Shown one piece after another: positions 5,835 to 43,298 of a stretch of DNA of 64,000 nt; positions within the stretch are counted from its first letter, which is position 1, and each line of letters starts with the position of its first letter. Source of the DNA: Rhodospirillales bacterium (GTDB lineage: Bacteria > Pseudomonadota > Alphaproteobacteria > Acetobacterales > Acetobacteraceae). The DNA lies in contig JANYDF010000078.1 in NCBI GenBank assembly GCA_025359905.1, forward strand, positions 1 to 64,000. The letters are read 5' to 3'. Both the position numbers and the translations under genes were made by a program. Below the pieces are notes generated by a model that was not told the DNA's origin, made no database searches, and saw only the letters and a program-made list of their open reading frames with translations.

Positions 5835-6050
5835 ATGTATGCAGCCCAACCCCCGTTCTTTGCGACGCTTTCAGCGACCGGCGCCGCGCTGCGTCAGCAA
5901 ATCTGCACTTGGCAAGACGCGATCAAACATGTATCCAACGATTCGCGGTGCGGCTGTTTACTTCCGCCCTCCGTCCCGATCCCATGTGCCGCTGCCGAAT
6001 TGGTGAGGGCGCATGTCGGCCGGGCAATAGGCGCTAACGCGTACACCTGA
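5835..6050 (+). CDS. Possible small hypothetical protein
   Basis: A 71-codon frame starting ATG TAT GCA. It encodes an Ala- and Cys-containing protein ending in a short Arg/Ala-rich stretch. Codon use includes several codons rare in this genome (AGG, ATA, TTA), and no clear Shine-Dalgarno sequence precedes it. It lies downstream of the promoter at 5658-5686 and just before the coiled-coil gene. I recognise no family, and two other frames overlap it. It is listed only as the least unlikely small gene in the gap. Confidence 0.15.
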   Translation: MYAAQPPFFATLSATGAALRQQICTWQDAIKHVSNDSRCGCLLPPSVPIPCAAAELVRAHVGRAIGANAYT

Positions 6051-6070
6051 GCAATATCGGAACAAAACTA

Positions 6071-7048: not shown

Positions 7049-7106
7049 GGCAGCCGCATAGCAGTATCTCGCTGGCACGCAGCCGCAACGCTGGACTGGC
7101 CGTTTG

Positions 7107-7152
7107 TCCTTGCGCACCGTAAGGTCGGCGCAAGGACCGGCTTGTCAGCCGG
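7107..7152 (+). promoter_or_regulatory. Two adjacent hairpins just upstream of the aldolase-lut operon
   Basis: TCCTTGCGC (7107-7115) pairs perfectly with GCGCAAGGA (7128-7136), with a further ACC/GGT helix inside the loop. It is immediately followed by CCGGCT (7137-7142) pairing with AGCCGG (7147-7152). The second hairpin ends 21 bases before the ATG at 7174, next to its GGGGGA ribosome site. No T tract follows, so they look more like a structured 5' leader or mRNA-stabilising element than a terminator for the upstream gene. Confidence 0.4.
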
Positions 7153-7173
7153 CGGAATCGGCTGGGGGACGCG

Positions 7174-10019: not shown

Positions 10020-10021
10020 CC

Positions 10022-11434: not shown

Positions 11435-12084
11435 GCCGCGAGCGCATTCTGGCCGCCGCCCGCGCAGCCCTTGGCCGCTCCGGCAATCCCGACGCTGGCG
11501 CCATCCGCGCCGAAGCGGCCCGGCTGGTGGCCGGTGCTGATCGTGGCCGCCCGCCGCGTTCCGGCACCTTGACCGAGCGGTTCATCGAACGGCTGACCGA
11601 CCCGAAAGTCGGCGGCACCGTCGAGCAGGTCGCCAGCCTGTCCGGGCTGCCCGGTGCGGTGCGCGCCTATCTGTTCACCCATAACCTTCCCGCCAGCATC
11701 GCATTACCGCCCGACCCGGCGCTGACCGCGTTGGATTGGGCCGGGATCGCCACGCATCACCGCATCGCCACCGATGAGCCCGTTGCAGTCGGCTTGGCGG
11801 CCTGTGGCATCGCCGAGTCGGGCTCGCTGGTGTTCCACTCCGCCCCCACGGCACCCACGCTGCACAATTTCCTGCCGCTGCATCACATCGTGGCGCTGGA
11901 CACTGCCAAGCTGCTGGAATGGCTGGAGGATTACGCCACCGGCCCGGCGTGCGGCGGACGGGCGCAGCCGCGCAACGTCAACATCGTCACCGGGGCAAGC
12001 GGCACCACCGATATCGAGGGGCGGCTGGTGCGCGGGGCGCATGGACCAGGGTTTCTGCACGTGGTGCTGTTCGCCGGCGGGTAA
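11431..12084 (+). CDS. lutC: L-lactate utilization protein LutC
   Basis: A 217-residue LUD-domain protein, the third component of the LutABC L-lactate oxidation complex. The C-terminal half holds the family pattern CGIAESGSLVFHSAP, LPLHHIVAL and NVNIVTGASGTTDIEG, which is typical of LutC/YkgG. Its N-terminus is a short Ala/Arg-rich helix. The ATG at 11431 overlaps the lutB stop by four bases. It is the last gene of the aldolase-lutABC unit. The 85-base gap that follows contains the start region of an unrelated ABC exporter and no evident terminator. Confidence 0.92.
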   Translation: MSRERILAAARAALGRSGNPDAGAIRAEAARLVAGADRGRPPRSGTLTERFIERLTDPKVGGTVEQVASLSGLPGAVRAYLFTHNLPASIALPPDPALTALDWAGIATHHRIATDEPVAVGLAACGIAESGSLVFHSAPTAPTLHNFLPLHHIVALDTAKLLEWLEDYATGPACGGRAQPRNVNIVTGASGTTDIEGRLVRGAHGPGFLHVVLFAGG

Positions 12085-12169
12085 ATCCGCCGCCATTTGT
12101 CCGGGCCATCTGCTGGAAGCGCATCGGCGGTCTATCTGTCAGACTGTAGCTTTGCGCGGAGAGCCCCGA

Positions 12170-13939: not shown

Positions 13940-14940
13940 GGGGCGTGAATCGTTCCCATCTTGACAACTTCGAAGTTAGACCCCTTCACACTGCCAAGTT
14001 CGGCGACCAGCCGGCTGTTGTTCCAGTGCGGATCGGGTGTGCCGGAGACGTACCAATTGCTGCCGATATCGGCGAGCAGCATCCCGTAGATCTTCATGGC
14101 TTGCAGGATGACACGCGCTTGGTTGCCGAAGGTGGCCGGGATGACGTAGCTGGCTTTCAGCCGCACGCGCATACCCATCGGCGGCAGATTGGCGCTGGTG
14201 TTGCTGCCGACCCAATGGTTCGCAGGGTCCACATAAGCCTTTCGCACGTTGCCGACGGTGAAGCGAAGTGCATGTGGAATGACCCCGGCCGACACCTCAT
14301 CGAAGCGCACCAATCCGGGAAAGATCGGCAGCCCGGCGGCGTCCGCACTGGTCCAACCAGGCTGCGCAGCCGGGCGGACGATGTTCGAGTCAAGGTGGAA
14401 CTCGGCGCCGGACGCCGCCTTCCAACTGTTGTCGGCCTGCTTGATCGCGGAATACAGCTCGAAGCTACGATTGGTGTCGCGGTCGATCACCAGCACGTGG
14501 CGGTCCCCGGCGGGCGGCAAGCCGTTGTTCTTCGAGCCTTCGACTGGAGCGGTTGGCGGCACCGGATACGGGCCCGGGTCGCTCTCGCTGCCATAGGCGG
14601 TGAACGTGATCGTCACCGGCGTCTGTGCCGAGGACACCACGACGTACGGGATGCCGATGATTTGGTGATTGTAAGTGCCGGCCCCGAAATCCGGGTGCAG
14701 CCCGGTGTTGAGTCCGATGGAGGCGATCAGCGCCGCCGAGTTCGGATCGACGGCTGCCGCGGCAATCTTGGTGTTCCAGGCATTGTTCGCCGGAAACGGC
14801 ACGGCTTTGTTCAGACTGGCCCCGTTGCCGAGGCTGGCGGTGGCCATGTTGCCATAGGTGAATACGGCTGGCGCCTGCGCCATGGCAGCCGTAGAGGCTG
14901 CGAACAAAACGGTGGCGGCCAGAGCGGCAATTGGGTGCAA
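13936..14940 (-). CDS. Secreted protein of unknown function, conserved family
   Basis: A 334-residue protein with a clear Sec signal peptide (MHPIAALAATVLFAASTAAMA, cleavage after AMA near residue 21). The mature part has recurrent stretches that I recall from a family of uncharacterised secreted proteins in actinobacteria and proteobacteria: NNAWNTKI, GSESDPGPYPVP, DRHVLVIDRD, TSADAAGLPIFPGLVRFDE, LPPMGMRVRLKASY and NWYVSGTPDPHW. No catalytic motif or lipobox is recognised, and only one or no Cys is present. It is probably periplasmic or exported. It is transcribed alone, and its start is supported by the signal peptide. Function is unknown. Confidence 0.85.
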   Translation of the reverse strand: MHPIAALAATVLFAASTAAMAQAPAVFTYGNMATASLGNGASLNKAVPFPANNAWNTKIAAAAVDPNSAALIASIGLNTGLHPDFGAGTYNHQIIGIPYVVVSSAQTPVTITFTAYGSESDPGPYPVPPTAPVEGSKNNGLPPAGDRHVLVIDRDTNRSFELYSAIKQADNSWKAASGAEFHLDSNIVRPAAQPGWTSADAAGLPIFPGLVRFDEVSAGVIPHALRFTVGNVRKAYVDPANHWVGSNTSANLPPMGMRVRLKASYVIPATFGNQARVILQAMKIYGMLLADIGSNWYVSGTPDPHWNNSRLVAELGSVKGSNFEVVKMGTIHAP

Positions 14941-22319: not shown

Positions 22320-22341
22320 ACCCACACAAGGAGATTCTGTT

Positions 22342-23141
22342 ATGGCCCTGGTCGCGATGCGGCAGTTGCTGGACCACGCGGCGGAGCATGGCTACGGCCT
22401 GCCCGCCTTCAACATCAATAATATGGAGCAGATCCAGGCGATCATGCAGGCGGCCGATGCAGCGGGCGCGCCGGTGATATTGCAGGGCTCCGCTGGTGCG
22501 CGCAAATACGCCGGTGAGCCGTTCCTGCGCCATATGGTGCAGGCCGCGGTGGAAATGTGGCCGCATATTCCGGTGGCGATGCATCAGGACCACGGCGCCA
22601 GCCCGGCGGTGTGCCTGCGCGCGATGCGCAGCGGCTTCACCAGCGTGATGATGGACGGCTCGCTGATGGAGGATATGAAAACCCCGTCCAGCTACGACTA
22701 CAATGTCGAGGTCACCCGCTCAGTCGTGGGCATGGCCCATGCCATCGGCGTCTCGGTGGAAGGTGAACTCGGCTGTCTCGGCTCGCTTGAAACCGGCGAG
22801 GCGGGCGAGGAAGATGGCTATGGCTGGCAACCATTCGCGAATATGGCGGCAGGATCAAGGAAACCTACGGCGTGCCGGTGGCGGAAATTCAGGAAGGCAT
22901 CCGCAACGGCGTGCGCAAGATCAACATCGACACCGATATCCGGCTGGCGATGACCGGGGCAATGCGCCGCGCCATGGGCAAGAACCCGGAAGAATTCGAC
23001 CCGCGCAAATTCCTCGCCGCCGCCACCAAGGCCGCCAAGGAACTTTGTCAGGAGCGGTTCGAGGCCTTTGGCTGCGCCGGGCAGGCGGCCAAGATCAAGC
23101 CGGTGCCGCTGGAGGCGATGGCGCTGCGCTACGCCGGATAG
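22342..23141 (+). pseudogene. cbbA: Class II fructose-bisphosphate aldolase, internal deletion and frameshift
   Basis: AAGGAG and ATG open a normal class II aldolase ([60 protein letters not shown]). At about 22820 the sequence jumps, one frame over, to [19 protein letters not shown] and continues normally to [10 protein letters not shown]. Compared with relatives about 80 codons are missing between EEDG and WLA. These would carry the GTSHGAYK and VMHGSSS segments with two metal-binding His residues. The intact upstream frame reads on to a stop at 22953 with a nonsense tail. The product would be inactive if the sequence is right. It is the last gene of the cbb operon. A short shared ATGGC at the junction is compatible with a microhomology deletion (inferred) or an assembly collapse. 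Confidence 0.88.
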
Positions 23142-25729: not shown

Positions 25730-25841
25730 TGCTGTTCTCCCTAAACCGCCGCCATGTTAGATGGAACGCCCGCGCAGGCTTGACAAGACATTTCCAGACC
25801 GGGACTTTGCGCGTCAGCAGGGCGTCCAGAAAGGGTCTCAT

Positions 25842-26846
25842 ATGAACCGTATCATAAACAATCCTGACGAGGTCGTTGAAGATGCTCTGCGCGGCTATTT
25901 GCGCGCGCATCAGGATCTGCTGGCGTCTACCGACAATCCCCGCGTCATCCGTGAGCGCAGCGCGCCGCGCCAGGGCAAGGTAGGCATCGTCACCGGCGGC
26001 GGCTCGGGCCCCGAACCGGCGTTTCTGGGCTATATCGGCGAAAACATGATCGACGCAGTGGCCATCGGTGAGATTTTCTCGTCGCCGACCGCGAAAAGCT
26101 TTCATGACGCCTTTGTGGCGGCCGATGGCGGGTGCGGCGTGGCGTGCCTGTATGGCAACTACGCTGGCGACAATATGAACGTGAAGATGGCGATCCGCCA
26201 AGCCGCGGCGCACGGGCTGACGGTGAAAACCGTTGTCGCCAACGACGACGTGCCGAGTGCGCCGAAAGACGAACGGGCCAAACGGCGTGGCGTGGCGGGC
26301 GAGATTCTGATGTGGAAAGTCGGCGGCGCCAAAGCGGCCGAAGGTGCCGATCTCGATGCGGTGATCGCCACGGCGCAGAAGGCCATCGACAACACCCGCA
26401 GCATCGGCATCGGCCTGACACCCTGCACCATTCCCGCAGTTGGCAAGCCGAACTTCTCCATTGCCGACGGCATGATGGAAGTCGGCATCGGCCACCACGG
26501 CGAACCGGGCATCGAGGTAGGACCGATCCGTCCGGCGCGGGAACTGGCCGATCTGATGCTGGATGCCATCCTGCCGGATTTGCCCTTCGGAGAGGGTGAC
26601 AACGTCGCTGTGCTGGTCTCAGGCCTCGGCGCCACGCCGGTAATGGAACTCTACATCCTATACGATCACATCGCCGAAGTGCTGGCCTCGCACAACATCA
26701 CGGTGCGGCATCCCTTCGTCGGCAATTACTTTACCTCGCTGGAAATGATGGGCGTCACGCTGACGGTGATGAAGCTCGACGAGGAACTGGACCGGCTGGT
26801 CGGTATGCCGGCGCATTCCATCGGTCTGACCAAGGTTGCCCGATGA
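25842..26846 (+). CDS. DhaK-type kinase subunit (dihydroxyacetone or tetrulose kinase)
   Basis: A 334-residue DAK1-domain protein that binds a short ketose for phosphorylation. The loop usually GGGSGHEP reads GGGSGPEP (Pro57 by a CCC codon), replacing a conserved active-site His. The acid in NYAGDNMN and the covalently binding His in GIGHHGEPG are retained. The start is ATG at 25842. It overlaps the dhaL-type gene by four bases (ATGA), so the subunits are made together. No PTS phosphotransfer protein (DhaM) is adjacent, so an ATP-dependent enzyme is likely. Members of this family also phosphorylate L- or D-erythrulose (LerK/DerK). The altered loop and the polyol neighbourhood make a non-DHA substrate plausible. 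Confidence 0.87.
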   Translation: MNRIINNPDEVVEDALRGYLRAHQDLLASTDNPRVIRERSAPRQGKVGIVTGGGSGPEPAFLGYIGENMIDAVAIGEIFSSPTAKSFHDAFVAADGGCGVACLYGNYAGDNMNVKMAIRQAAAHGLTVKTVVANDDVPSAPKDERAKRRGVAGEILMWKVGGAKAAEGADLDAVIATAQKAIDNTRSIGIGLTPCTIPAVGKPNFSIADGMMEVGIGHHGEPGIEVGPIRPARELADLMLDAILPDLPFGEGDNVAVLVSGLGATPVMELYILYDHIAEVLASHNITVRHPFVGNYFTSLEMMGVTLTVMKLDEELDRLVGMPAHSIGLTKVAR

Positions 26847-30171: not shown

Positions 30172-31551
30172 TTAGTTGTCGGCAAACAACTCGGGGTAAG
30201 CGCGTGCCTTGCCGGCCACGCCTTGGGCCTTGAAGCGTTCTGCCGTTGCCGCCGCCGCCGCATCCAGCGCGTCCTTGGCCGACTTGCCGCCGGTGAACAC
30301 CGATTCGATCTGCTCGCCGATCAGGTCGCCCATTTCACGCCACTGCGGGATCATCGGGCGGTAGTCTTTCTTGGTGATCGCCTGACCGTCGGCAACCGCC
30401 TTGATGTAGCCCGCATCCAGCTTGCTCTTCAGCAGGTCGGACTGGTTGACCGACTTGCGGTCCTCGTTGCCGATGTCCTTCGCCGTGCGGGCGAATTCCA
30501 TCTGCTGCGAGGTCGCCCATTGCAGGAAGCTCGAAGCCGCATCGAGCGTCTTGGCGTCCGTCACGCTGGCGGCCACCGCGAGGCCGATGGAGTAGTTGGC
30601 CGGATAAGCGCCCTTCGGGCCAGCCGGCACGACAGCGTAGCCGATCTTGCCAACCACGTTGGACTGCTTCGGGTCGATAAAGGTCGGGTAGAACGCAGTG
30701 GATTCCACGATCATCGCCACGCGGCCAGCATTGAAGCTGGACGACACCTTATCCCAGCCCCAGGTGCCCGAGCCCGGCGGGCCGGACTTGCGGATCAGGT
30801 TCGAGTAGTGCTCGGTGCCCTCGATGGCGGCGGCCGAGTTGAACACCGGCTCCATGGTCGGGCTGAGGAAGTTGCCGCCGTAGCTGCGCAGCCACTCGGT
30901 CCACGGATAGACATTCATGCCCTCGCCGCGCAGGCCGCGCAGCGCGATGCCGTAGGTCTTTGGCGGCTGGGTAAGCTTGGCCGCAGCCGCTTCCAACTCG
31001 TCCAGCGTCTTGGGCACGGCGAGGCCAGCCGCTTCCAGCAGATCCTTGCGGTAGTACAGGATCGTTACTTCGGCGTAGATCGGCACACCGTACAGCTTGC
31101 CGTCCCACGAATAGGTGCCGCGCAGGCCGTCGAACACGTCGTCGAGCTTGTAGGCGGGCTTGATCGACGAATCGAGTTCATGCACCCAGCCGTTCGAGGC
31201 AAACAGCGGGATGTAGTTGTTGTCCAGGCAATACACCTGGAAGCCGGCGGCCTTGTTCGACGCGTCGGCAACGATGTGGCTGCGCAGGTCGTTTTCCGGA
31301 TAGTCGGTGAAGTTGATCTTCGCCCCGGTGTGCTGCTCGAATAGCGCCTGATGGCTCTGGATGAAATCCATCGCCGGCAGATGGCGGCAGGCAATGTTCA
31401 GCGTCACGCCCTTGAACGCGCCCGCAGGGGCGAAATCGGGCAGCGAGGACTTCACAGCGCCTTCGTAGTCCTGCGCGGCGGCAGGCATCGCAGTTATTGC
31501 CGGCGCAGCAAGCACGCCAGCGATGGCCAACGGAATCAGAGACCGCTTCAT
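30172..31551 (-). CDS. Extracellular solute-binding protein (family 1), sugar/polyol ABC importer
   Basis: A 459-residue periplasmic binding protein with a Sec signal peptide (MKRSLIPLAIAGVLAAPAITA, then AAAQD as probable cleavage near residue 27). The mature part has the cluster B features of maltose/polyol binding proteins: GKLYGVPIYAEVTILYYRKDLLEAAGL, GIALRG, FNAGRVAMIVESTAFYP. It delivers a carbohydrate to the two permeases downstream. GAGGAGG precedes the ATG at 31551. A near-consensus GlpR-type palindrome sits 40-60 bases upstream. No matching ATPase is in this unit; it may share one of the ATPases encoded at 35866-38057. Confidence 0.92.
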   Translation of the reverse strand: MKRSLIPLAIAGVLAAPAITAMPAAAQDYEGAVKSSLPDFAPAGAFKGVTLNIACRHLPAMDFIQSHQALFEQHTGAKINFTDYPENDLRSHIVADASNKAAGFQVYCLDNNYIPLFASNGWVHELDSSIKPAYKLDDVFDGLRGTYSWDGKLYGVPIYAEVTILYYRKDLLEAAGLAVPKTLDELEAAAAKLTQPPKTYGIALRGLRGEGMNVYPWTEWLRSYGGNFLSPTMEPVFNSAAAIEGTEHYSNLIRKSGPPGSGTWGWDKVSSSFNAGRVAMIVESTAFYPTFIDPKQSNVVGKIGYAVVPAGPKGAYPANYSIGLAVAASVTDAKTLDAASSFLQWATSQQMEFARTAKDIGNEDRKSVNQSDLLKSKLDAGYIKAVADGQAITKKDYRPMIPQWREMGDLIGEQIESVFTGGKSAKDALDAAAAATAERFKAQGVAGKARAYPELFADN

Positions 31552-31715: not shown

Positions 31716-33215
31716 CTACGCTGATCGAATGGTTTCCATCCACGACGAGAACGCGGATTGTTCAGCAATTGTCATATGCAAATGGTGTTTGGTTCGCCGC
31801 GTCAGCACATCCTCGCCGGTGCGAGCCCATTCAGTACGGTGCAGGAACTCTGCCTCGCACTGATACAACCGTCCGCCGAAATGCCGCCCCAAATCGGCCA
31901 CTGACGCCGCACCGTCGAGCAAATCGTGCATTCTCGTGCCGTATTGCCGCGCGTAGTGCAGCGCCACGTCTGGCGGCAGAAACCCGTAGCGAATGGCAAC
32001 ATCCGCCGCGAAGAGCTCGAAATCCGCATGCGGCATATCGCCGCCCGGCAATGGCGTGCCGCGTGTCCAGTCGCCCTTCATCTGCGGATAAAACGGGGCA
32101 AGCTTTTGCAGCGCGTGCTCGGCAAGTTTGCGGAACGTGGTAAGTTTGCCGCCGAACACCGACAGCAGCGGGGCGCGGCCATCGCCGCCTTCAACATCGA
32201 ACACATAGTCGCGGGTCACGGCCGATGGATTGGCGGCGTTGTCATCGTACAGCGGCCGGACGCCGGAATACTCGTGCAAAATATCGGCAGGTTTAAGCTG
32301 CGTGCGCATGTAGCGATTAACCACGCGGCATAGATAGTCACGCTCGGCGGCATCCACCGCCACATTCTCGGCGCGGCCTTCATACGGAATGTCGGTTGTG
32401 CCAATCAGGCACAGATCGCCCTCGTACGGGTTCACGAAGATCACCCGCTTGTCATCGTTTTGGAGCAAATACGCCTGGGAGCCCTCCCAGAATTTGCGAA
32501 CGATGATGTGGCTGCCTTTGACCAAGCGGATTTTGCGGGTCGAGTTCGCCCCCAGCACGCCGGTAATAACCTGCTCCACCCACGGCCCCGCCGCGTTGGC
32601 CAATCCGCGCGCCTGAACCTCACGCTCGACGCCGTCAGTGCTGCGCAGCGTCACTCGCCACAGCGCCCCGTCCCGCCGTGCGCTCACCACACTGGTCCGT
32701 GTCAGGATTTCAGCGCCCAGGCGCTGCGCGTCCAGCAGGTTCAGCACCACCAGCCGCGCGTCTTCCACCCAGCAATCGGAGTATTCAAATGCGGTGCGAT
32801 AGGCGTCCTTGATCGCCTTGCCTTCGGGGTCGCGCCGCAAATTCAACCGCCGCGTCGCTGGCAGCTTATCGCGTCCGCCGAGGTGGTCGTACAGGAACAA
32901 GCCAAGCCGGATCAGCCAGGCCGGGCGCTGTTCGGCGCTGTGCGGCAGCACAAAGCGCATCGGCCAAACGATATGCGGTGCCGCGCGCAGCAGCACTTCG
33001 CGTTCAATCAGCGCTTCGCGCACCAGCCGGAATTCGTAATATTCCAAGTAGCGCAAGCCGCCGTGAATCAGCTTGCCGGAGCGCGATGACGTGCCTTCTG
33101 CCGGGTCGCCCTTTTCGGCCAGCAGCACACTCAGCCCGCGCCCGGCGGCGTCGCGGGCAATTCCGGCGCCGTTGATGCCGCCGCCGATCACCAGCAGGTC
33201 GAAAATATCGCTCAT
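31716..33215 (-). CDS. FAD-dependent glycerol-3-phosphate / erythritol-4-phosphate dehydrogenase (GlpD/EryB-like)
   Basis: A 499-residue flavoprotein of the GlpD family. Seen: FAD motif VIGGGINGAGIARDAAGRG near residue 9, TSSRSGKLIHGGLRYLEYYEFRLV, PAWLIRLGLFLYDHLGG, FEYSDCWVEDARLV, NAAGPWV, TTDIPYEG and FGGKLTTFRKLAEHAL. It oxidises a polyol phosphate and passes electrons to quinone at the inner membrane. Its place behind an EryA-like kinase and a SorC regulator, and resemblance to EryB as I recall it, favour erythritol-4-phosphate. GlpD itself cannot be excluded. It is the last gene of the polyol operon, seven bases after the hydroxyacid dehydrogenase. Confidence 0.88.
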   Translation of the reverse strand: MSDIFDLLVIGGGINGAGIARDAAGRGLSVLLAEKGDPAEGTSSRSGKLIHGGLRYLEYYEFRLVREALIEREVLLRAAPHIVWPMRFVLPHSAEQRPAWLIRLGLFLYDHLGGRDKLPATRRLNLRRDPEGKAIKDAYRTAFEYSDCWVEDARLVVLNLLDAQRLGAEILTRTSVVSARRDGALWRVTLRSTDGVEREVQARGLANAAGPWVEQVITGVLGANSTRKIRLVKGSHIIVRKFWEGSQAYLLQNDDKRVIFVNPYEGDLCLIGTTDIPYEGRAENVAVDAAERDYLCRVVNRYMRTQLKPADILHEYSGVRPLYDDNAANPSAVTRDYVFDVEGGDGRAPLLSVFGGKLTTFRKLAEHALQKLAPFYPQMKGDWTRGTPLPGGDMPHADFELFAADVAIRYGFLPPDVALHYARQYGTRMHDLLDGAASVADLGRHFGGRLYQCEAEFLHRTEWARTGEDVLTRRTKHHLHMTIAEQSAFSSWMETIRSA

Positions 33216-33222
33216 TGGCCGC

Positions 33223-34278
33223 TCAGCACGGGTTCAACGGCGGTTCGCCGGCGATGTGGCGGCGCACTTCCTCAGCGGCGCCCTCGGCGGCGATAGTGAT
33301 GGTCTTCACCGAGGCGCCGGCGATATGCGGCGTCAGCGTCACGTTGGGCAGCTGCAACAGCTTCCAGTCCGGCGGCGCCGGTTCGATGGCAAACGTCTCC
33401 AGCATCGCGCCGCCCAGATGCCCGCTGACCAGCGCGTCATACAGCGCGTCGTAGTCCACCATCGGGCCGCGCGCGGTATTGACGAATATAGTGCCCGGCT
33501 GCATCGCGGCGAATTGGGCGCGGCCGATGAAGCCTGTGGTTTCTTCGGTCACGCGCGCGTGCAGCGTGGTCACGTCGGCTTGCGCGAGCAGGTCATCGAG
33601 TTGCACGTGCGTCACGCCATCCGCCCGGTCGGTTGCCGAGAGCTGCACATAGGGGTCGGCCACCAGAATGCGACAGCCGAACGCCTTCAATAGTTTGACG
33701 ACGCGCGAGCCGATCTGGCCGTAGCCGATGACGCCGACGGTCATTTCCGACAGCTCGCGCCCAGTCCGGTCGGCGCGGTACAGATCGCCGCGCCATTCGC
33801 CAGCGCGCAATGCCTCATGGCCCACCCGGATCAACCGGGTTTCCGCCAGAATCGCGCCGATGGCGAATTCGGCCACGGCACTGGCATTGCGGCCCGGTGT
33901 GTTGACCACCCGCACGCCACGCGCCCGCGCCGCCGCCATGTCGATATTCACCGGTCCGCCGCGCGAGACCGCAACGAGCTTCAAGTTCGGCAGCCGCTCC
34001 AGCATTGCGGCCGATAGCGGCGCCAACTGGGTCACCAGCACTTCGGCGTCGCCGACGAATTGGCAAATTTCGTCCGGGTCGCCTTGATACTCCTTCAGCC
34101 CAGACATCCCCGGTGTGGCATAGCCATGCTCCATCGGCGCATCCGGCCACGGCAGCGTCATGCTGCGCAGGCTCACCCGCTCACCGCACAAGGCGCTGAT
34201 CGCATTGGCGAATTTTTCAGGCAGCATGAAATTGTCGCCGATGATGGCGATATCGCAGGCCGGGCGGTCAGACGACAT
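33223..34278 (-). CDS. D-isomer-specific 2-hydroxyacid dehydrogenase (phosphoglycerate dehydrogenase-like)
   Basis: A 351-residue NAD-dependent dehydrogenase. Features: VAVSRGGPVNIDMAAARARGV with the substrate-binding Arg-Gly region, VGVIGYGQIGSRVVKLLKAFG (Rossmann motif near residue 180) followed by VADPY, NTARGPMVDYDAL with the catalytic Arg, and LTPHIAGASVKT with the catalytic His. The native substrate might be a phosphorylated or free sugar acid, since the gene sits between the EryA-like kinase (11-base overlap with its end) and the GlpD/EryB-like gene. True serine-pathway SerA is less likely, because no regulatory ACT domain is present. Confidence 0.87.
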   Translation of the reverse strand: MSSDRPACDIAIIGDNFMLPEKFANAISALCGERVSLRSMTLPWPDAPMEHGYATPGMSGLKEYQGDPDEICQFVGDAEVLVTQLAPLSAAMLERLPNLKLVAVSRGGPVNIDMAAARARGVRVVNTPGRNASAVAEFAIGAILAETRLIRVGHEALRAGEWRGDLYRADRTGRELSEMTVGVIGYGQIGSRVVKLLKAFGCRILVADPYVQLSATDRADGVTHVQLDDLLAQADVTTLHARVTEETTGFIGRAQFAAMQPGTIFVNTARGPMVDYDALYDALVSGHLGGAMLETFAIEPAPPDWKLLQLPNVTLTPHIAGASVKTITIAAEGAAEEVRRHIAGEPPLNPC

Positions 34279-35869
34279 TCGGTGCTTCTCTCGCAGCGTG
34301 CAGGCGGCGCCATAGGTGGGGCAATGCGGCGTAGGTGTCGCGGTAAAGCGGAAACAGCCGGTCGTAAACGTCCACCAGCGCCGGGTCTGGCAACAGCGGC
34401 GCTTCTAGCCGGGGCGCCACCCACACGGCGGCACAGTCCGCCATGTTGGCGAATAATCCGTGGCACACCGCCGCCATCATCGCCACGCCAGCCGCCCCCG
34501 CCTCGACCTGGCCAGACACTCGCACGGGGCGGTTCAACGCCGCCGCCAGCAACGCGCGGATCGCCGGTGAGCGGGCAGCACCGCCGGTGACGCGAATATC
34601 GGCCGGCGCGCCGCCGATTGCCGCGTAGCAATCGCGGGACGCGAAGCACAGCCCGTCGAACACGGCGCGGGCGAGGTCTTTCAGCCCGACGCTCTGGTCC
34701 AGCCCGATCAACGAGGCGCGGGCAAACGCATCGGTGAACGGCCCGCGCTCGCCAGCCGAGGAAATGAACGGATGGAACAACGCCGCCCCCGGCCGCCCGG
34801 CCAACGCAAGCTCGCCCAGCGCGCGCAAAATCTCACCACGCCCGGCCGTCCCGCCGGTCAACGCTGCCGCGTCCGCTATAATATCGGCCAGCCAGTCGAT
34901 GTTCAGCGTGGCCGCCATGTTGGTCTGCGCCTGGATCGTGTGGCCCGGCACCGGGAACGGCATGCAGTAGCCGGTGCCCGCCGGGCTGGGCGCGACATCG
35001 GCCACATTGGCGACCAGCTTGATATGCATCCCGGTGCTGCCGATCACCGACACCCCAGCATCGGCGCCCGCGCCGTACACCCCGGCATCGGCGCCCGCGC
35101 CGTACAGCCCGGCGCCGAGTGCGGTGCACAGCACATCGACGTAGCCGAGCGACACCGGCAGCCCGGCCGGCAGCCCAATCCGCGCCGCCACCGCCGCCGA
35201 CAGCGGATGCGATTGCAGCGTGCCGTCGACGATTTCCGGCAGCAGATGGCGGCGATGCGACAGGCCGAGTGCGGCGATCACATCCGGTTGATAGGTGCGA
35301 GTGCGGTAGTCGCCGAAGGTGAAATTGCCCTCGCACGGCGACGTGGCGCGCGTGCCGGTGAAGCGGAAATACAGGTAGTCCTTCGGATGAAACGAGGTCG
35401 CCGCCCGGTTCAGCATCTCAGGCCGGTAGCGATCCATCCACAGCAATTGGCCGCCCTGCTGGCAGGCCGATAGCCCGGTGCCGGTATGGGCAAACACCGC
35501 CTGCGCCGCGCCGCTGGCGTTCAACTCCTCGACGATCGCGGCCGCCCGCGCGTCGAGCCACAGCCAGCCGCCGCCAAGCGGCTCGCCGTCCGCGTCGATC
35601 ACCCATGTTCCGTCGCCCTGCCCGGTGATGCCGAGCGCCACCACTTCGGCATTGGGAAACCGCGCCGCCAGATCGGCACTCAGTGCGGCCAGCACGTCGG
35701 CGGCGTCGTCGAAGGTGCGGCGCATGTCCTGCTCCGCACCGCCGCCCGGCAGCGCAGTCCACACATTCGGCCGGCTGCTGGTGGCCAGGATCGCGCCATC
35801 GGCGCTGAACGCCACGGCCTTCACGACCGAGGTGCCCGAGTCGAGCGCGACAATAACCGGCGCGCTCAT
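34268..35869 (-). CDS. eryA: FGGY-family kinase, erythritol kinase-like (EryA)
   Basis: A 533-residue carbohydrate kinase. The ATG at 35869 (MSAPVIVAL) overlaps the preceding ATPase stop. FGGY features: phosphate-1 motif ALDSGTSVVKAVAF at the N-terminus, GITGQGDGTWVID, WLWLDARAA, CQQGGQLLWMD, KDYLYFRFTGTRATSPCEGNFTFG and GYVDVLCTALGAG. These follow the erythritol kinase subgroup as I remember it; xylulose or glycerol kinase signatures fit less well. A 27-bp tandem duplication adds nine residues (YGAGADAGV twice) in the loop after GAGLYG, close to the nucleotide site, and may affect activity. It would convert erythritol to its 4-phosphate for the GlpD/EryB-like enzyme downstream. Confidence 0.83.
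   Translation of the reverse strand: MSAPVIVALDSGTSVVKAVAFSADGAILATSSRPNVWTALPGGGAEQDMRRTFDDAADVLAALSADLAARFPNAEVVALGITGQGDGTWVIDADGEPLGGGWLWLDARAAAIVEELNASGAAQAVFAHTGTGLSACQQGGQLLWMDRYRPEMLNRAATSFHPKDYLYFRFTGTRATSPCEGNFTFGDYRTRTYQPDVIAALGLSHRRHLLPEIVDGTLQSHPLSAAVAARIGLPAGLPVSLGYVDVLCTALGAGLYGAGADAGVYGAGADAGVSVIGSTGMHIKLVANVADVAPSPAGTGYCMPFPVPGHTIQAQTNMAATLNIDWLADIIADAAALTGGTAGRGEILRALGELALAGRPGAALFHPFISSAGERGPFTDAFARASLIGLDQSVGLKDLARAVFDGLCFASRDCYAAIGGAPADIRVTGGAARSPAIRALLAAALNRPVRVSGQVEAGAAGVAMMAAVCHGLFANMADCAAVWVAPRLEAPLLPDPALVDVYDRLFPLYRDTYAALPHLWRRLHAAREAPNVV
35051..35104. repeat. 27-bp tandem duplication inside the EryA-like kinase gene
   Basis: Bases 35051-35077 and 35078-35104 are identical except one position (CACCCCAGCATC versus CACCCCGGCATC). 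The frame is kept and the peptide YGAGADAGV appears twice in succession. A further partial copy (CAGCCCGGCGCC) follows. Confidence 0.85.
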
Positions 35870-36957
35870 GCCGATGCGGTTCCGTGTGCCAAAGCGCGGC
35901 CGCTCGCCGCGTCGAATAAATGCGCGTGTTCGGCGCCGAAGCCGAGCGGCACCGTCTCGCCGACGCGCACCGGCACCCGTTGATGCGCCACCGCGACCAC
36001 AATGCGGCTGCCAAGCGCCAGCACCACGTGCGCTTGATCGCCAAGCCATTGATTGGAAATCACTTGCCCGCGCCACACCCCAGCGCCGAGGTGCAACCGG
36101 TGCGGGCGAATGCCGAGCACCACCTTGCTGCCAACGGCGGGCAACGCAACGCCGGGCAGCGCCAGCGCGTCCTCGGCTACGTCGTCAATATGCAGGCCGT
36201 GCGGTTCCACCGTGGCGGGCAGCGCATTCATCGGCGGCTCACCGAGGAAGGTGGCCACCAGCAGATTGGCCGGCCGGTCGCGCAGTTCGGACGGCGCGCC
36301 ATATTGCTGCAACACACCGGCTTCCATCACCGCAATGCGGTCGGCCATCGCGTTGGCCTCGGTTTGGTCGTGCGTCACCAGTACCGCGGTCAGCCCGCGC
36401 GCCTTCAACGCCGCCTTCACCCGGCCGCGCAGAATGGCGCGCAACTGCGGTTCCAACTGGCCCATCGGCTCATCAAGCAAATGCAAATCCGCATCGCGCG
36501 CCAAGGCCCGCGCCAGACTGGCGCGCTGCTGCTGACCGCCGGACAGCCCGGCAGGGCGGCCCTTCAGAATCGGCCCGATCTCCAGCATGTCGGCCATCTC
36601 ACGCACGCGCTTGGCCGCCTCGTTACGGTCCAGGCCGCGCGCGGTCAGGCCGAAGCCGATGTTTTCCTCGATGGTGAGCGGTGGGTATAGCGCATAACCT
36701 TCGAACGCCATTGCAACCCGGCGGCGATCCGGGGTGAGCGTTTCGATCCGCCGCCCGGCCAGCGTGATGCCGCCATCGGTCACGCTCTCGAAGCCTGCGA
36801 TCATCCGCAACGTCGACGTCTTGCCGCAACCGGACGAACCGAGCAGTGCGACGATTTCACCCTTGTCCATTCTGAGATCGAGGCTGCGCACCGCCTGCAC
36901 CGAACTGCCGTGGCGGCCGGGGTAGGTCTTGCTGAGGCTGGTCAATGCGAGCGTCAC
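35866..36957 (-). CDS. ABC importer ATP-binding protein, first of a pair (MalK-like)
   Basis: A 363-residue ATPase with a C-terminal MalK-like regulatory OB domain. The start is the GTG at 36957, overlapping the second ATPase's stop (GTGA). Walker A GSSGCGKTS, signature LSGGQQQRASLARAL, Walker B plus catalytic Glu LHLLDEP and switch LVTHDQTEAN are intact. The Q-loop reads MAFEGYALYPP, with Glu replacing the usual Gln, and the D-loop is MGQLEPQ rather than SNLDA. It probably heterodimerises with the neighbouring ATPase to drive the two permeases upstream, an organisation I recall for the rhizobial mpt polyol transporter. It could also serve the ATPase-less importer at 28.3-31.5 kb. Confidence 0.9.
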   Translation of the reverse strand: MTLALTSLSKTYPGRHGSSVQAVRSLDLRMDKGEIVALLGSSGCGKTSTLRMIAGFESVTDGGITLAGRRIETLTPDRRRVAMAFEGYALYPPLTIEENIGFGLTARGLDRNEAAKRVREMADMLEIGPILKGRPAGLSGGQQQRASLARALARDADLHLLDEPMGQLEPQLRAILRGRVKAALKARGLTAVLVTHDQTEANAMADRIAVMEAGVLQQYGAPSELRDRPANLLVATFLGEPPMNALPATVEPHGLHIDDVAEDALALPGVALPAVGSKVVLGIRPHRLHLGAGVWRGQVISNQWLGDQAHVVLALGSRIVVAVAHQRVPVRVGETVPLGFGAEHAHLFDAASGRALAHGTASA

Positions 36958-38057
36958 GCGGCGTGCTCCACCATTTGGGCCACGGCCGGGATACGCGCCC
37001 CGCTTTCGGCGTCGAACAACAAGGCGTGCGTGGTATCGGCCATCAGCCACACCGCGCTGCCCGGCGGTGGCACCGCGCCGAGCACGCTGGCCACCACTTC
37101 CTCACCAGTCGCGGCGCGCAGCAGCACGACAAGGCGTTCATGCAGCGGCGTGGTGGCGATCAGTTGCGCGCGGGCGGCGCCCGGTTGCTCGGATTGCGAT
37201 AGCGCGATGGCTTCCGGGCGGATGCCGAGCAGACAGGAGCGCCCGGCTGCGCCGCGTTCCACCGCCAAATTGATCTGCCAGCCCGCCGCCGAAACGGCCA
37301 CGCCCCTAGGCCCGGCGACCGGACGGCAGGGCAACAGGTTGATCGGCGGATCGCCGAACAGCCGGGCGACTTTCACGGAATTCGGCGCGTCGTAGATTTC
37401 CTCGGGCGGCGCCAGTTGCGCGATGTGGCCGTCGAGCAAAATCGCCACCCGATCAGCCAGACCCATCGCCTCGCGATAGTCCTGCGAGACATAAATCGTC
37501 GCGGCCCCGGCGGCGCGCAGCAGGCGCGGCAGTTCCAGCCGCATTTCATAACGCAGCTTGGCGTCCACGTTGCGCAGCGGGTCGTCCAGCAGCAGCACTT
37601 TCGGCTTGCCGACCAGTGCCCGGGCCAATGCCGTGCGTTGCTTCTGCCCGTTGGACAATTCTTTCGGCGAATGCCCCAGCACATGCGTAATACGCAGCAA
37701 CGCCGCGACCTCGTTGACCCGCGTCTCGATGTCCGCTGGCGTCACGTTGCGCGCTTGCAGCGGGCTGGCGATGTTTTCGCGCGCCGTCATGTGCGGATAG
37801 AGCGCGAAATTCTGAAACGCCATGCCGAGGCCGCGCGATTCCGGGCCCAATGTGGACACATCGCGCCCGGCGATCCGCACATTGGCGCGCGCCGCCGGTT
37901 CCAGCCCGGCGATGGCGCGCAGCAGCACCGTCTTGCCACAACCGGACGGCCCGAACAGCACCAGGGTTTCGCCCGGCGCCACCGTGAGGTCGATGCCCTT
38001 CAGCAGTTCGTTGCGGCCAAACGCGACGCGCAGGCCGTGGATATCGAGGCCGTTCAT
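36954..38057 (-). CDS. ABC importer ATP-binding protein, second of a pair, with degenerate catalytic residues
   Basis: A 367-residue MalK-like ATPase. The start ATG at 38057 overlaps the permease stop. Walker A GPSGCGKTV, Q-loop MAFQNFALYPHMT and signature LSNGQKQRTALARAL are present. The Walker B segment is LLLDDPLRN, with Asp in place of the catalytic Glu, and the switch reads YVSQDYREAM, with Gln in place of the His. Both changes are verified from codons near 37581 and 37482. Its partner has both residues, so the pair would form an asymmetric dimer with one impaired hydrolysis site. The C-terminal regulatory domain is present. Confidence 0.9.
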   Translation of the reverse strand: MNGLDIHGLRVAFGRNELLKGIDLTVAPGETLVLFGPSGCGKTVLLRAIAGLEPAARANVRIAGRDVSTLGPESRGLGMAFQNFALYPHMTARENIASPLQARNVTPADIETRVNEVAALLRITHVLGHSPKELSNGQKQRTALARALVGKPKVLLLDDPLRNVDAKLRYEMRLELPRLLRAAGAATIYVSQDYREAMGLADRVAILLDGHIAQLAPPEEIYDAPNSVKVARLFGDPPINLLPCRPVAGPRGVAVSAAGWQINLAVERGAAGRSCLLGIRPEAIALSQSEQPGAARAQLIATTPLHERLVVLLRAATGEEVVASVLGAVPPPGSAVWLMADTTHALLFDAESGARIPAVAQMVEHAA

Positions 38058-38923
38058 CCTTTGACCGCTCCGAGGCTGAGGCCTTCGACCAGCCAGCGTT
38101 GCGCATACAGCGCCAGCGCCAGCGTGGGCATGATCGACAGCACAATGGCCGCCGCGATCTGGCCGTATTGAATGCCGGAGGCAGTCACGAACGCCAGCGC
38201 GCCCACCGTCACCGGTTGCTTGTCGGCCGATGCCAGGATCAGCGCAAAGACGAAGTTGTTCCAGGCAAAGATGAACGCCAGCAACCCGGCCGCCGCAATG
38301 CCCGGCCCGGCCAGCGGGATGGCGATGCGGGTGAAGGCCCGCCACCAGCTATGGCCATCGACGCGATAGGCGTATTCCACGTCCGGGCTGGCGTCCTCGA
38401 AATAGCCGCGCACGATCCACAGGATCAGCGGCAGGCAGATCAACTGATACACCCAGATCAGCCCGGTATAGGTGTTGGCCAGCCCCAGATCCTTGAAATA
38501 CAATGACAGCGGCAGCAGCACCAGCAACGGCGGGGCGAAGCGGAACGACAGCAGGGTGAAGGCAATATCCTCGCCCAGCCGGAAGCGGAACCGTGCGAAG
38601 GCGTAGGCGGCCGGCACGCCGAGTACCAGCGAGACCAGCACCGAGACCGACGACAGCAGCACCGAGTTGAACAGGTTGTGCATGAACGGCAGGTCGAGCG
38701 ATCCTGCCGCCGTTTGCAAATGTCCCGAGATCAACGAGGTGTAATTGATCAGCGTCGGCGTGAACGCCAGGCTGGGCGGGATTGCCAGGATCGTCTCGTT
38801 GGTCTGAAACGACATCAAGAAGATCCAAAGGATCGGAAACAGGAAGAACACCAGCACGACCACCAAGGCGATAGCGCGCAGGATGCGCGGAATGGGGCTT
38901 CCGGTACCGTCAATGCGCGCCAT
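38054..38923 (-). CDS. Polyol/sugar ABC transporter permease (MalG-like)
   Basis: A 289-residue inner-membrane permease with six hydrophobic stretches. The N-terminal segment (ALVVVLVFFLFPILWIFLMSF) is the first helix. The cytoplasmic EAA-like coupling loop is seen in VEYAYRVDGHSWWRAFTRIAIPLAGPG near residue 200. It starts inside the end of the partner permease gene (14-base overlap) and ends in the start codon of the second ATPase, so the importer is translated as a coupled unit. Confidence 0.92.
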   Translation of the reverse strand: MARIDGTGSPIPRILRAIALVVVLVFFLFPILWIFLMSFQTNETILAIPPSLAFTPTLINYTSLISGHLQTAAGSLDLPFMHNLFNSVLLSSVSVLVSLVLGVPAAYAFARFRFRLGEDIAFTLLSFRFAPPLLVLLPLSLYFKDLGLANTYTGLIWVYQLICLPLILWIVRGYFEDASPDVEYAYRVDGHSWWRAFTRIAIPLAGPGIAAAGLLAFIFAWNNFVFALILASADKQPVTVGALAFVTASGIQYGQIAAAIVLSIMPTLALALYAQRWLVEGLSLGAVKG

Positions 38924-39833
38924 GGGTGCGCTCCCGCAGTTTCAGCCATTGTTTGATGAACACATTCGACAATGCGTAGGTGATCGCCCACAGGATCATC
39001 ATCAGCGCCGCCGAGCGGCCGACATTGGTGTATTGGAAAAAGTCGAGATAGGCGCTGACCTGGAATAGCAGCAGGCTGTCGCCCGGCCCGCCCTGCGTCA
39101 TGGCATACACGATGTCGAATTGCTGGATGCTGTCGAGCAGCCGGAACAGCGTGGCCGTCACCATGTACGGCATCAGCATCGGCAGCGTGATGCGGAAGAA
39201 TACGAAATGGGCCGGCACGCCATCGAGCTTCGCCGCCTCGAACGGCTGCGTCGGCAGGCTGCGCAATCCGGCCAGCAGCAGGATCATGATGAAAGGCGTG
39301 TAGACCCACACATCGACCAGTACCACGGTGAACATCGCCGAGGATGGCGCTGACGCCCATTTGAAGTCGGTCACGCCGAACAGCGAGATCACCCAGCTCA
39401 GCACGCCGAAGCCAGGGTTGGTCATCAACTTCCACATCAGCGCGGCGATGGCCGGCGCCGTCATCAGCGGCAGCAGCAGCGCCACCGAGGCGGCGTTGTT
39501 CACCTTGCTGCGTTCGCGCAGTAGCAGCGCGATGCCGAGGCCGAGCAGCAACTCCACGCCGACCGTGGAGACGGTGTACAGCATGGAGACGTAGACGGTG
39601 TGCCAGAAGTCCGCGTCGTTGAAGAAGTTCCAGTACTGATCGAACCAGATAAAGCCGCGCCGCTGCGGCATCGACAGCTTGTAGCGCTGCAAGCTGTAGT
39701 ACGCGGCGGTGACGAACGGCACCAGAATGCCGACGCAGACCAGCAGCGCCGGCAGGCTCAGCAGATACGGCAGCAGCCGGGCACTGCGAGGGCCGGAAAC
39801 AGCGGCCGGGGTTGAATGCGTGGTGTCGGACAT
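38910..39833 (-). CDS. Polyol/sugar ABC transporter permease (MalF-like)
   Basis: A 307-residue permease with six predicted helices. It has the coupling motif QPFEAAKLDGVPAHFVFFRITLPMLMP near residue 205 and DIVYAMTQGGPGDSL, the MalF-type conserved loop. It is preceded on the same strand, after a 138-base gap with a strong palindrome, by the solute-binding protein gene. It overlaps the MalG-like partner. It forms the transmembrane channel with that partner for a substrate likely to be a polyol, given the EryA- and EryB-like genes downstream. Confidence 0.92.
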   Translation of the reverse strand: MSDTTHSTPAAVSGPRSARLLPYLLSLPALLVCVGILVPFVTAAYYSLQRYKLSMPQRRGFIWFDQYWNFFNDADFWHTVYVSMLYTVSTVGVELLLGLGIALLLRERSKVNNAASVALLLPLMTAPAIAALMWKLMTNPGFGVLSWVISLFGVTDFKWASAPSSAMFTVVLVDVWVYTPFIMILLLAGLRSLPTQPFEAAKLDGVPAHFVFFRITLPMLMPYMVTATLFRLLDSIQQFDIVYAMTQGGPGDSLLLFQVSAYLDFFQYTNVGRSAALMMILWAITYALSNVFIKQWLKLRERTHGAH

Positions 39834-39905
39834 CGGGGTGCGGGTGGTCCTTACGGATGGGTCGAAGTGACGGCGCGCCCCTCACCCCCTTCGCTGCGCT
39901 CCGAA

Positions 39906-39930
39906 CCCTCTCCCGCACGGCGGGAGAGGG
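39906..39930. repeat. Strong palindromic intergenic element (REP-like)
   Basis: An 11-bp perfect stem CCCTCTCCCGC / GCGGGAGAGGG (39906-39916 with 39920-39930) with an ACG loop is embedded in sequence typical of dispersed proteobacterial palindromes (CTTCGCTGCGCTCCGAACCC before, TGGCGCGCAGCGCCGGG after). It lies between binding-protein and permease genes, 41 bases past the former's stop, and could stabilise the upstream message. No second copy was noticed in the window. Confidence 0.65.
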
Positions 39931-39971
39931 TGGCGCGCAGCGCCGGGTTGGGGTCGCGCCGCCGGTACGCG

Positions 39972-41404
39972 TTAGCCCAGGCCGTTTTCCTTGAGTTGCT
40001 TGTCCAAGCTGGCCGCCAGCTTGTCGATCCCCTCGTCGACCGGGATTTCCTTGGCGACCATGCGCTGCAACGCGGCAGCCCATTCGGTCGTCAGGTCGAA
40101 GAACATCGGCTGCGGCGTGAAGTAAATCTGAGCCTTCGGCGCCGTTGCGGTGTACTGGTCGAGGTAGCCGGGGTACTTGTTGATCTTCTCCTTGAATTCC
40201 GGGTCCTGCCAAACCTTGGTGCGGATCGGGTTGACAAGGTCCATCTTACGCGCGCCGAACATGCAATGATCGGTGCCGGTCGCCCACTGGATCAGATCCC
40301 AGGCGGCGTCCTTGTTCTTGGAGAAGCTGGACATGGCCAGCGACCACACCCACACGTTCGCTGTGGGCTCGGTCGCCTTCGGGTTGGCGGCAAAGGCGGC
40401 GTAGCCGAGGTTGCCGCGTTCCTTGTTGTCGCCACCGTTCATGAAGTAGCCGAGAATGTCGGCGTCGAAGATCATGCCCGACGCGCCGGCGCCGAGGTCG
40501 GTGCCAACCTGATACCAGGTGTAGGTCGCCCAGTTCTTCGGCCCGCTGTCCTGGATCATTTTCACCCAAAGCTTGGTGAATTCCTTGGCTTGCGGCGAGT
40601 TCATCGCGGCCTTCAGCTTGCCGCCTTCCTGGGTGAAGTCGGTGGCACCGTAGTTGGCGTAACCCGACAGGAAGCCCGGGTGGATGGTCGCCCACGAGCG
40701 GCTGCCACGCACGCCGATGCCGTATGCCCCACCGGAGTCTTTGGTAATCTTGGCGGCGACTTCCATCATGTCCGGCAGGTTCTTCGGCACTTGCACGCCG
40801 ATCTTGTCGAACATCTTGCGGTTATAGCTGATGTTGTTGGCTTCGAAGCCCAACGGCACGCACCACTGCTTCGCACCGGGGCCACCCAGCGCGTCGCCCG
40901 GCTTGCCGGACCATGCGGTGGACGAACGCAGACCGGGCAGCACGCCTTCCCAGTCGTAGTTCGGCGCGGCCTTGCCGCCCTTGATGTACTCGTTCAGGTC
41001 GACCAGCCAGCCCGCCGGGCCGTAGGTCCAGGTCATGTACGCGCCGGTCATGAAGGCGTCGTATTCGGTCGAGCCAGACGACAGCGCGGCCGTCACTTTG
41101 TCGAAATACACGTCTTCCGGGAACACGTCCCAGGTGACGTTCATGCCGGTCATCTTCTTGAAGTTCTCGATGTCGGCGATCATCGCATCGGCGTACGGAT
41201 GCTTGTTGAGCAGCAGCTTCAGCGAGGTGCCCTTGTGCGCCATCGCGTTGTAGTCGGCTGCCAGCGCCTGGGTGGACAGGGCGTTGATCAGCGTGTTCGC
41301 GGCGGCAGCGGAAATGCGAAGGCGGCAGTGCGCTTGAACAATTCGCGGCGGCCCACTTGGCCGGCAGCGAAGGCGCGAAACAGGTCGTTCGCCTTCTCAT
41401 ACAT
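39972..41404 (-). pseudogene. Solute-binding protein of the polyol ABC importer, frameshifted in its leader
   Basis: The mature protein (about 420 residues from the ATG at 41243) is an intact family 1 binding protein (NKHPYADAMIADIENFKKMTG, FPEDVYFDKVTAALSSG, VPLGFEANNISYNRKMFDKIGV, GIGVRGSRSWATIHPGF). The true start is the ATG at 41404, with GGGAGAG ten bases upstream. It encodes a Tat-like leader with GRRELFKRTAAFA in a different frame, which stops at 41288. The matching continuation ISAAAANTLINALSTQALA lies one frame over, so a single base is missing near 41311-41320. Translation from 41243 has no ribosome site and would give a protein without an export signal. The lesion is either a real frameshift or a base-call error. 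It stands directly behind the SorC regulator. Confidence 0.85.
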
Positions 41405-41439
41405 GGTTGTTGTCTCTCCCTATTGTGGTCCGCGCGGCA

Positions 41440-42405
41440 TCAGTTTCGAACGGCAAGCCGGCGCGCAGTCGGCTCGTCGGTGATCAGGCCGGTCAGCAGA
41501 TGGCTCCGCAGCACGGCGTTGATGGCGTCGATTTTGTCCGCACCACCAGCCACCGCGACCACGCCGCGCAACGACGGCAGCGGCAGGGCGATCAGGCGGT
41601 CATGCAGTATTGTGGAAGCAAGGCTGCCGTCAGCGGCGAAATAGCGGCCGAGCATTTCACCGGCCGCCCCGGCGGCGCGCAATTCGCGCACCTCGCCGGC
41701 GGCAATCATGCCCGCCATCGGCAGAAACGCGGCCTCGGCCACCGCGCCGATGCCCACCACCATCAGCGTGGCTTCAGCCGCCAGCGCCAGGGTTTCGGCA
41801 ACACCACGCTGGGCGCGCAAAACATCGGAATCGGCAGGTGAATTGGCGAACATCGGCACCGGCAGCAAATAGGCGTCAGCCCCGGTTTTTTCGGCCAGCC
41901 GGTTAATGACATCGAACGGCCCGGTGCTCAAGCGGCGCGGCAGGCCGCCGAGCAACGACACCAGCCGGGTTTGCGGCGCGGGCACGCGCGGCATTAAATC
42001 CACCGCGTTGGACAGCGTGCGGCCGTGGCCGACGCCCACCACGCGATGCGTGCCTTGCTCGAACGTCTCACGCAGGAACAACGCGGCGGCGGTGGCGGTG
42101 GCGCGCAGGTTCGGCGCGGGGTGATCAAGCGCCGGCACCACGCGGCACACGGACAGCCCGTATTGCGCCGTCAGCGCTTCTTCCAGCGCGATACAGCCGC
42201 CAATCGGGCCTTCGACAAACACACGCACCAGCCCGGCCTGGGTAGCGCGGGCGATCAGGCGGTGGGCTTTGGCGGGAGCAATGCCGAGCTTGGCGGCGAC
42301 GTCGGCCTGGGTCAGCGCACCGGCATAGTACAGCCACGCCGCACGAGTGGCGAGCTCGGTATCCTCCACTGCAAGCGAAACGGTATCGAGCGCCGCCGAC
42401 GCCAT
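41440..42405 (-). CDS. SorC/EryD-family sugar-binding transcriptional regulator
   Basis: A 321-residue regulator of the SorC/DeoR sugar-binding class. The N-terminal helix-turn-helix covers about residues 20-62 (YYAGALTQADVAAKLGIAP and AKAHRLIARATQAGLV). The rest is the phosphosugar-binding domain (GVGHGRTLSNAVDLMP, VSLLGGL, MVVGIGAVAEAAFLPMAGMIAAGEV). Members such as EryD and SorC respond to a phosphorylated or free polyol. It is followed after 35 bases by the importer operon and presumably controls it. A near-perfect 13-bp-arm palindrome covers its own start region, indicating autoregulation. Confidence 0.9.
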   Translation of the reverse strand: MASAALDTVSLAVEDTELATRAAWLYYAGALTQADVAAKLGIAPAKAHRLIARATQAGLVRVFVEGPIGGCIALEEALTAQYGLSVCRVVPALDHPAPNLRATATAAALFLRETFEQGTHRVVGVGHGRTLSNAVDLMPRVPAPQTRLVSLLGGLPRRLSTGPFDVINRLAEKTGADAYLLPVPMFANSPADSDVLRAQRGVAETLALAAEATLMVVGIGAVAEAAFLPMAGMIAAGEVRELRAAGAAGEMLGRYFAADGSLASTILHDRLIALPLPSLRGVVAVAGGADKIDAINAVLRSHLLTGLITDEPTARRLAVRN

Positions 42406-42438
42406 GAAATTTTTTCCTTGGACGAGGAAAATTTTTCA
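42405..42438. promoter_or_regulatory. AT-rich near-palindrome at the SorC-type gene start, probable operator
   Basis: TGAAATTTTTTCC (42405-42417) and GGAAAATTTTTCA (42426-42438) match as inverted arms at 11 of 13 positions around an 8-base spacer. It touches the start codon at 42405. Such a site would let the SorC-type protein block its own and the importer's expression. Confidence 0.55.
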
Positions 42439-42470
42439 CAGCGCGGCCGCGCTGTCAAGCGTTTCGCGCG

Positions 42471-43298
42471 TTACTGCATTGCAGCAAAAGGTAGAATGTA
42501 GCGGTCAATCGCCAGCGCCCAGCCGTCGCTGTCGTTATCTTCGGTCAAAGCATGGGCATGTGCCTTCACCGCATCGGGCGCGTTGCCCATTGCGATGGCA
42601 AAGCCGCAGGCGGCGAACATCGGCAGGTCGTTCGGCATGTCGCCGAGGCACGCCACCTGCGCCATCGGCACGCCAAGGATTTCCGCCAACGCGACGGCAG
42701 CGGCACCCTTGTTGGCTTCGGGGTGGGTGACATCAAGGTAGTAGTCCTGCGAGCGGTGCACCGCCGCCGCACCGCCGACCGTGCCGCGCACGCCCGCTTC
42801 CATGCGGCCCATCAGCGCAAAATCGGTGCTGGTGCCCATCACCTTGTGCACCTGCGCCAGATGCGGCGCGAAATCGTCCACCACGCGCCACGGCATGCTG
42901 ATCGAAAGCTGCTCGCGCAGGATGTAGTGCGCCTGCGGGTTCTTCAGCAGCCACTCGCCACCGGCGAATACCCATACATCCGTGCCCGCCTGCTCCAGCA
43001 TCGCGACAGCGGCACGGCAGGCAGTTTCTGGAATGGTGCGCTGGCGCAGTAGCTTGTCCTGCATGTCGAGCACTTCGCCGCCGTTGAACCCGGCGCGCGG
43101 CGTGTCGATCCCCAGCGGGGCAAGCAGTACGTCCATACCGTGCGCCGGGCGGCTGCTGATCAGCGCGAATTTCACTCCGGCGGCGCGCAGCTTGTGCGCT
43201 GCTGCAATTGTCGAGGTGGCCAGCGTGCGGTCGTGCTTGACCAGCGTGCCATCGACGTCGCTGACCACGAGGCGGATTGGTTGTTGCGGAACTGTCAT
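42471..43298 (-). CDS. HAD-superfamily hydrolase, Cof/IIB type
   Basis: A 275-residue phosphatase of the HAD IIB (Cof/YidA) group, probably acting on sugar phosphates. Motif I is VVSDVDGTLVKHDR at residue 11, motif II LISSRP, the type-IIB cap occupies about residues 80-190, and motifs III and IV appear as EANKGAAAVALAEIL and CLGDMPNDLPMF. The ATG at 43298 starts the conserved core with only a short leader; upstream in-frame codons are unconvincing. It precedes the SorC-type regulator by 65 bases on the same strand, so it may respond to or be cotranscribed with the polyol genes. Confidence 0.9.
   Translation of the reverse strand: MTVPQQPIRLVVSDVDGTLVKHDRTLATSTIAAAHKLRAAGVKFALISSRPAHGMDVLLAPLGIDTPRAGFNGGEVLDMQDKLLRQRTIPETACRAAVAMLEQAGTDVWVFAGGEWLLKNPQAHYILREQLSISMPWRVVDDFAPHLAQVHKVMGTSTDFALMGRMEAGVRGTVGGAAAVHRSQDYYLDVTHPEANKGAAAVALAEILGVPMAQVACLGDMPNDLPMFAACGFAIAMGNAPDAVKAHAHALTEDNDSDGWALAIDRYILPFAAMQ

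Follow-up and report, generated by a model that had tools for sequence, protein, structure and literature searches.

What separates the twin-arginine leader of a solute-binding protein gene from the protein it should export, and does the separation exist in the living cell or only in the deposited sequence? This question is raised by the receptor gene of an ABC importer operon in the window, i.e., the whole stretch of 64,000 nucleotides that was analysed. We are highly confident that the gene encodes an unremarkable solute-binding protein of a polyol or carbohydrate ABC importer, that its leader is Tat-like, and that it carries one isolated, uncompensated deletion of one base, which is an accident and not a regulatory device. 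In all likelihood, the break does not represent a new mechanism and is due either to an ordinary mutation of recent date or to an error of the assembly.

The Leader and the Mature Receptor Are Encoded in Different Frames

A leader ORF (41288..41404) with a twin-arginine (RR) motif begins on the minus strand at ATG 41404, which is preceded by the purine-rich stretch AGGGAG. The translation of the ORF is MYEKANDLFRAFAAGQVGRRELFKRTAAFAFPLPPRTR*, that is 38 amino acids followed by a TGA stop codon at 41290-41288. The translation agrees in coordinates and description with the RR leader that had been claimed in an earlier note on this DNA. A different frame of the same strand, open from 41396 to a stop ending at 39972 (474 codons), encodes the mature solute-binding protein, and the end of the signal region and the mature protein together occupy 39972..41312. 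The protein belongs to the SBP_bac_1 family (Pfam PF01547, 99.2 bits, gathering cut-off 26). The stretch from 41396 to 41288 is shared by both frames. In a Tat-type precursor the RR motif, the signal region and the mature protein share one frame; in the window they are distributed over two. TatC is encoded in the window's genome.

An alternative start in the mature frame was considered and rejected: from 41396 onward, no ATG, GTG or TTG codon was found ahead of the ATG at 41243 (41241..41243, minus strand), and the product that starts there has no signal region. The earlier note was therefore right in stating that this ATG lacks an export signal in its own frame.

The position of the break was determined in two ways. 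Alignment with a relative of the same genus (G001) revealed a one-base deficit within 41311..41321, and the exact base depended on the aligner (41321 or 41317). A codon-usage HMM that was trained on the window alone also changed the frame there, with a first segment at 41407-41318 and a second at 41306-39975. Together they place the deficit at about 41311-41321, in accordance with the proposed 41311-41320. It had also been suggested that a base was missing in a run. The missing base was confirmed, but the run fits only weakly, as the longest homopolymer of the leader region has a length of three.

The strand opposite the receptor gene contains an open frame of 555 amino acids (39816-41483, plus strand), which probably reflects nothing more than codon usage at high G+C.

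The Gene Is in One Frame in Relatives

A scan of genome contigs yielded 310 relatives, of which the best 80 were kept (L013-L092). The RR leader is in frame with the mature protein in every one of these best 80, and, therefore, the frame break in the window is not due to chance. This count was obtained with the strict version of the leader search, which demanded M or V as first residue. With a looser leader motif, an ATG or GTG was found at most 40 codons upstream in 72 of the 80; inspection of the tally showed that this motif sometimes matched something other than the leader first. The 80 relatives are not independent, because many are from Bradyrhizobium and some leaders are identical. The locus is, thus, an interrupted coding sequence, with intact orthologues and a frame that is broken here. 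The one-base frame break postulated before was borne out, with a single uncompensated gap against G001 and all 80 relatives, the best of 310, in frame.

Over 446 mature residues, the window and G001 have 94.8% protein identity, with a dN of 0.032 and a dS of 0.365. Judged from these sequence values, the mature part is strongly constrained. For the 28 leader residues that were compared, the identity was 78.6%, the dN 0.18 and the dS 0.70. In the region 33000-42500, which is partly covered by G001, the remaining coding gaps were compensated nearby or were multiples of three, according to a list that was read by eye. A net gap of six bases against G001 is located ahead of the leader ATG.

To one of the relatives, L013 (CAIPHQ010000014.1), which very probably corresponds to the G001 contig, the window has 23 residue differences. 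Polarisation with L014 and L015 assigned eight of them to the window branch and ten to the other branch, while five were unclear. With this split of eight to ten, relaxed constraint was not seen; therefore, the deletion is either very recent or absent from the organism.

The Break Is Isolated in the Compared Part of the Window and in the Sampled Part of the Genome

The comparison with G001 covered 43,178 of the 64,000 window bases and included 46 coding segments with 41,113 coding bases; of positions 1-13999, only the flanks of fetched loci were included. In two of the 46 segments the comparison indicated a net frame change. In both cases the gap was within about 35 nt of the 5' end of the segment, and they are read as edge effects of the start region. 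No internal uncompensated gap was seen within any of the 46 segments. The gap at 41317, which is situated between two segments, was assessed on its own.

The codon-usage HMM was also applied to 319,432 of the 4,630,981 bases of the genome and detected 119 close frame changes on the same strand. A start codon was present within 60 nt in all but one of the 119, and the exception was the receptor break. The first scan had listed three breaks without a start, and one was left once a start was accepted within the first 60 nt of the downstream segment; in the other two, the downstream frame has an M close to the junction, a pattern typical of overlapping genes. Five cases in the genome with a start and a long run-on of the upstream frame also came from the first scan, and, given these five, the number of start-less breaks may be too low. 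One of the five, a possible further frame change, lies within the window at 22824/22830 (region 22339-23135), where a start codon is present and the upstream frame runs on for 126 nt.

The HMM is crude, and its hits in comparison genomes, which were not checked singly, amounted to two start-less breaks in 200 kb for G063, six in 200 kb for G086 and 35 in 400 kb for G116. The last of these, a single contig (loci L113-L132), had been chosen as a clean control; as it turned out to be full of breaks, it was used as a positive control. Its G+C content is 0.695, compared with 0.644 for the sample of the window's genome. The 35 start-less frame changes call for caution when G116 is used as a reference, and they suggest that it is an uncorrected long-read assembly. 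For the window's genome, general decay of the assembly was rejected as an explanation, with one start-less break left in the 319,432 bases sampled.

The Importer Operon and Its Likely Substrate

The order of genes in the window is sugar-binding regulator, receptor, two permeases, two ATPases, FGGY kinase, 2-hydroxyacid dehydrogenase and GlpD, all on the minus strand. The regulator, which is LsrR/DeoR-like and lies upstream of the receptor gene (41440..42405), matches PF04198 with 210.8 bits, and its NCBIfam matches are below the cut-off. Both permeases (38910..39833 and 38054..38923) match PF00528, with 54.9 and 59.2 bits, respectively. The ORF of the first ATPase is listed as 36954..38345 and contains the PF00005 domain at residues 115-257; the portion ahead of this domain, which overlaps the second permease gene, is probably not real. 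The second ATPase (35866..37050) matches PF00005 with 102.4 bits, and its best NCBIfam match is UgpC, below the cut-off. The FGGY-family carbohydrate kinase (34268..35869; PF00370 and PF02782) is likely to start at the ATG at 35869, while the listed ORF begins at 36076. It is followed by the D-2-hydroxyacid dehydrogenase (33223..34278; PF02826, 185.3 bits) and the glycerol-3-phosphate dehydrogenase GlpD (31716..33215; NF009906, 809.5 bits, cut-off 352). The kinase gene contains a 27-bp tandem repeat with 2.4 copies at 35050-35113, by which nine residues are duplicated in frame; in the alignment with G001 the window has two insertions there, one of 26 bases and one of a single base.

Plasmid p2 of Gemmobacter fulvus and plasmid p1 of Shinella sp. 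H4-D48, the two that were inspected among 40 matching plasmid records, share the gene order of the window between the regulator and the 2-hydroxyacid dehydrogenase. In both operons the receptor gene is annotated as one piece. Both then carry a gene of the class II aldolase/adducin family, and that of Gemmobacter also one for a glycerol-3-phosphate dehydrogenase. The role of a polyol importer, as had been proposed, is plausible in view of a match of the receptor to the sorbitol-binding protein 4rya and of the FGGY kinase and GlpD genes downstream. On the basis of these sequences, a polyol, for instance glycerol, is plausible as the substrate.

Further genes are located nearby. The region 25839-26846 encodes a protein similar to the dihydroxyacetone kinase DhaK (340.7 bits, below the NCBIfam cut-off of 406.25). 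A second carbohydrate ABC receptor gene (30172-31551), which is 28% identical to the first and has two permease-like ORFs beside it, possesses an in-frame hydrophobic leader that looks Sec-like by eye. A second receptor copy as a stand-in for the interrupted one was considered and rejected, because the genome contains three other matches, which are only 28%, 25% and 25% identical; judged from this identity, they probably serve other ligands.

Assembly Error or Recent Mutation

The deletion separates the RR motif from the remainder of the signal peptide, and the effects on translation and transport that we infer from it are as follows. If the sequence is read literally, ribosomes would make the leader of 38 residues and then stop. 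A protein restarted at ATG 41243 would remain in the cytoplasm, and the importer would be without its receptor. If the deletion is real, the untranslated stretch might also lower the expression of the downstream genes.

The chances are about even that the missing base is an assembly or consensus error and that the gene is intact in the living cell. The rest of the gene and the operon are conserved and intact, as is the gene in 80 of 80 relatives (the best of 310). Such errors are known in deposited bacterial genomes and, according to one study, accounted for 28 of 73 resequenced cases in Mycobacterium smegmatis (PMC1852416). An error explains the data about as well as an importer that is blind in the cell. 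The lack of another start-less break in the sampled part of the genome (one in 119 frame changes) argues somewhat against a careless assembly.

The same isolation, a single start-less break in 319,432 sampled bases, speaks for a real, recent loss-of-function deletion that leaves the cell without an exported receptor, an explanation to which we assign a somewhat less than even chance. It is also in line with the position of the site outside long homopolymers, the longest run of the leader region being three, and with the 45 of 73 resequenced interrupted genes of M. smegmatis that, by subtraction from the numbers of the same study, were not errors (PMC1852416). No other damage to the gene or the operon was seen, however, and the window branch has no excess of changes, which means that a deletion would have to be recent and which fits an error equally well. 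Taken together, error and real mutation are nearly balanced, with a slight lean to error because the gene and the operon are otherwise undamaged.

It is quite unlikely that the split is real and that the population holds the importer off at the receptor with the operon intact, as an easily reversed loss of polyol uptake. Even less probable is an internal start at ATG 41243 that makes a functional cytoplasmic protein. A restart there is conceivable, as the codon is situated about 45 nt past the leader stop, but the RR leader is present in 80 of the 80 best relatives (of 310), and receptors of ABC importers work outside the inner membrane. Programmed frameshifting requires a slippery site, usually a stimulating structure, and conservation of the split among orthologues. 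The formation of the full pre-protein by a programmed -1 frameshift is the least probable of all: the overlap of the frames from 41396 to 41288 would in principle allow joining, but the leader frame contains neither an X XXY YYZ heptamer nor a homopolymer longer than three, the predicted fold of 41330-41200 is no better than that of shuffled sequences (z -0.09, 80 of 200 shuffles as good), and the split occurs in none of the best 80 of 310 relatives.

The main weight of the one-base accident lies in annotation. Automatic annotation may report a pseudogene or a receptor without a signal here, and such a call could suggest that the organism is unable to import the substrate, when the sequence may just miss a base. 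If the deletion is real, it adds another recent case of gene loss in a nutrient importer.

Comparison with Known Systems

The best match of the receptor to a solved structure, by sequence, is the sorbitol-binding protein 4rya (E 7.7e-24, residues 51-393). The match has only 87.6 bits, and, thus, the ligand is not transferable to the window receptor. By its gene set, with a receptor, two permeases, two ATPases, GlpD and an FGGY kinase, the operon resembles what we take to be the organisation of the glycerol ABC importer GlpSTPQV. In contrast to that system, the best NCBIfam match of the window kinase is xylulokinase, below the cut-off.

For alpha-proteobacteria, PMC3305326 mentions ABC binding proteins with Tat-like leaders. 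The window receptor shares the domain of SBP_bac_1 proteins with such leaders, but its own leader is out of frame. In the M. smegmatis study, the interrupted coding sequences have, like the window, a frame break in an otherwise conserved gene, and errors and real mutations were sorted by resequencing (PMC1852416). The break in the window was read from the assembly.
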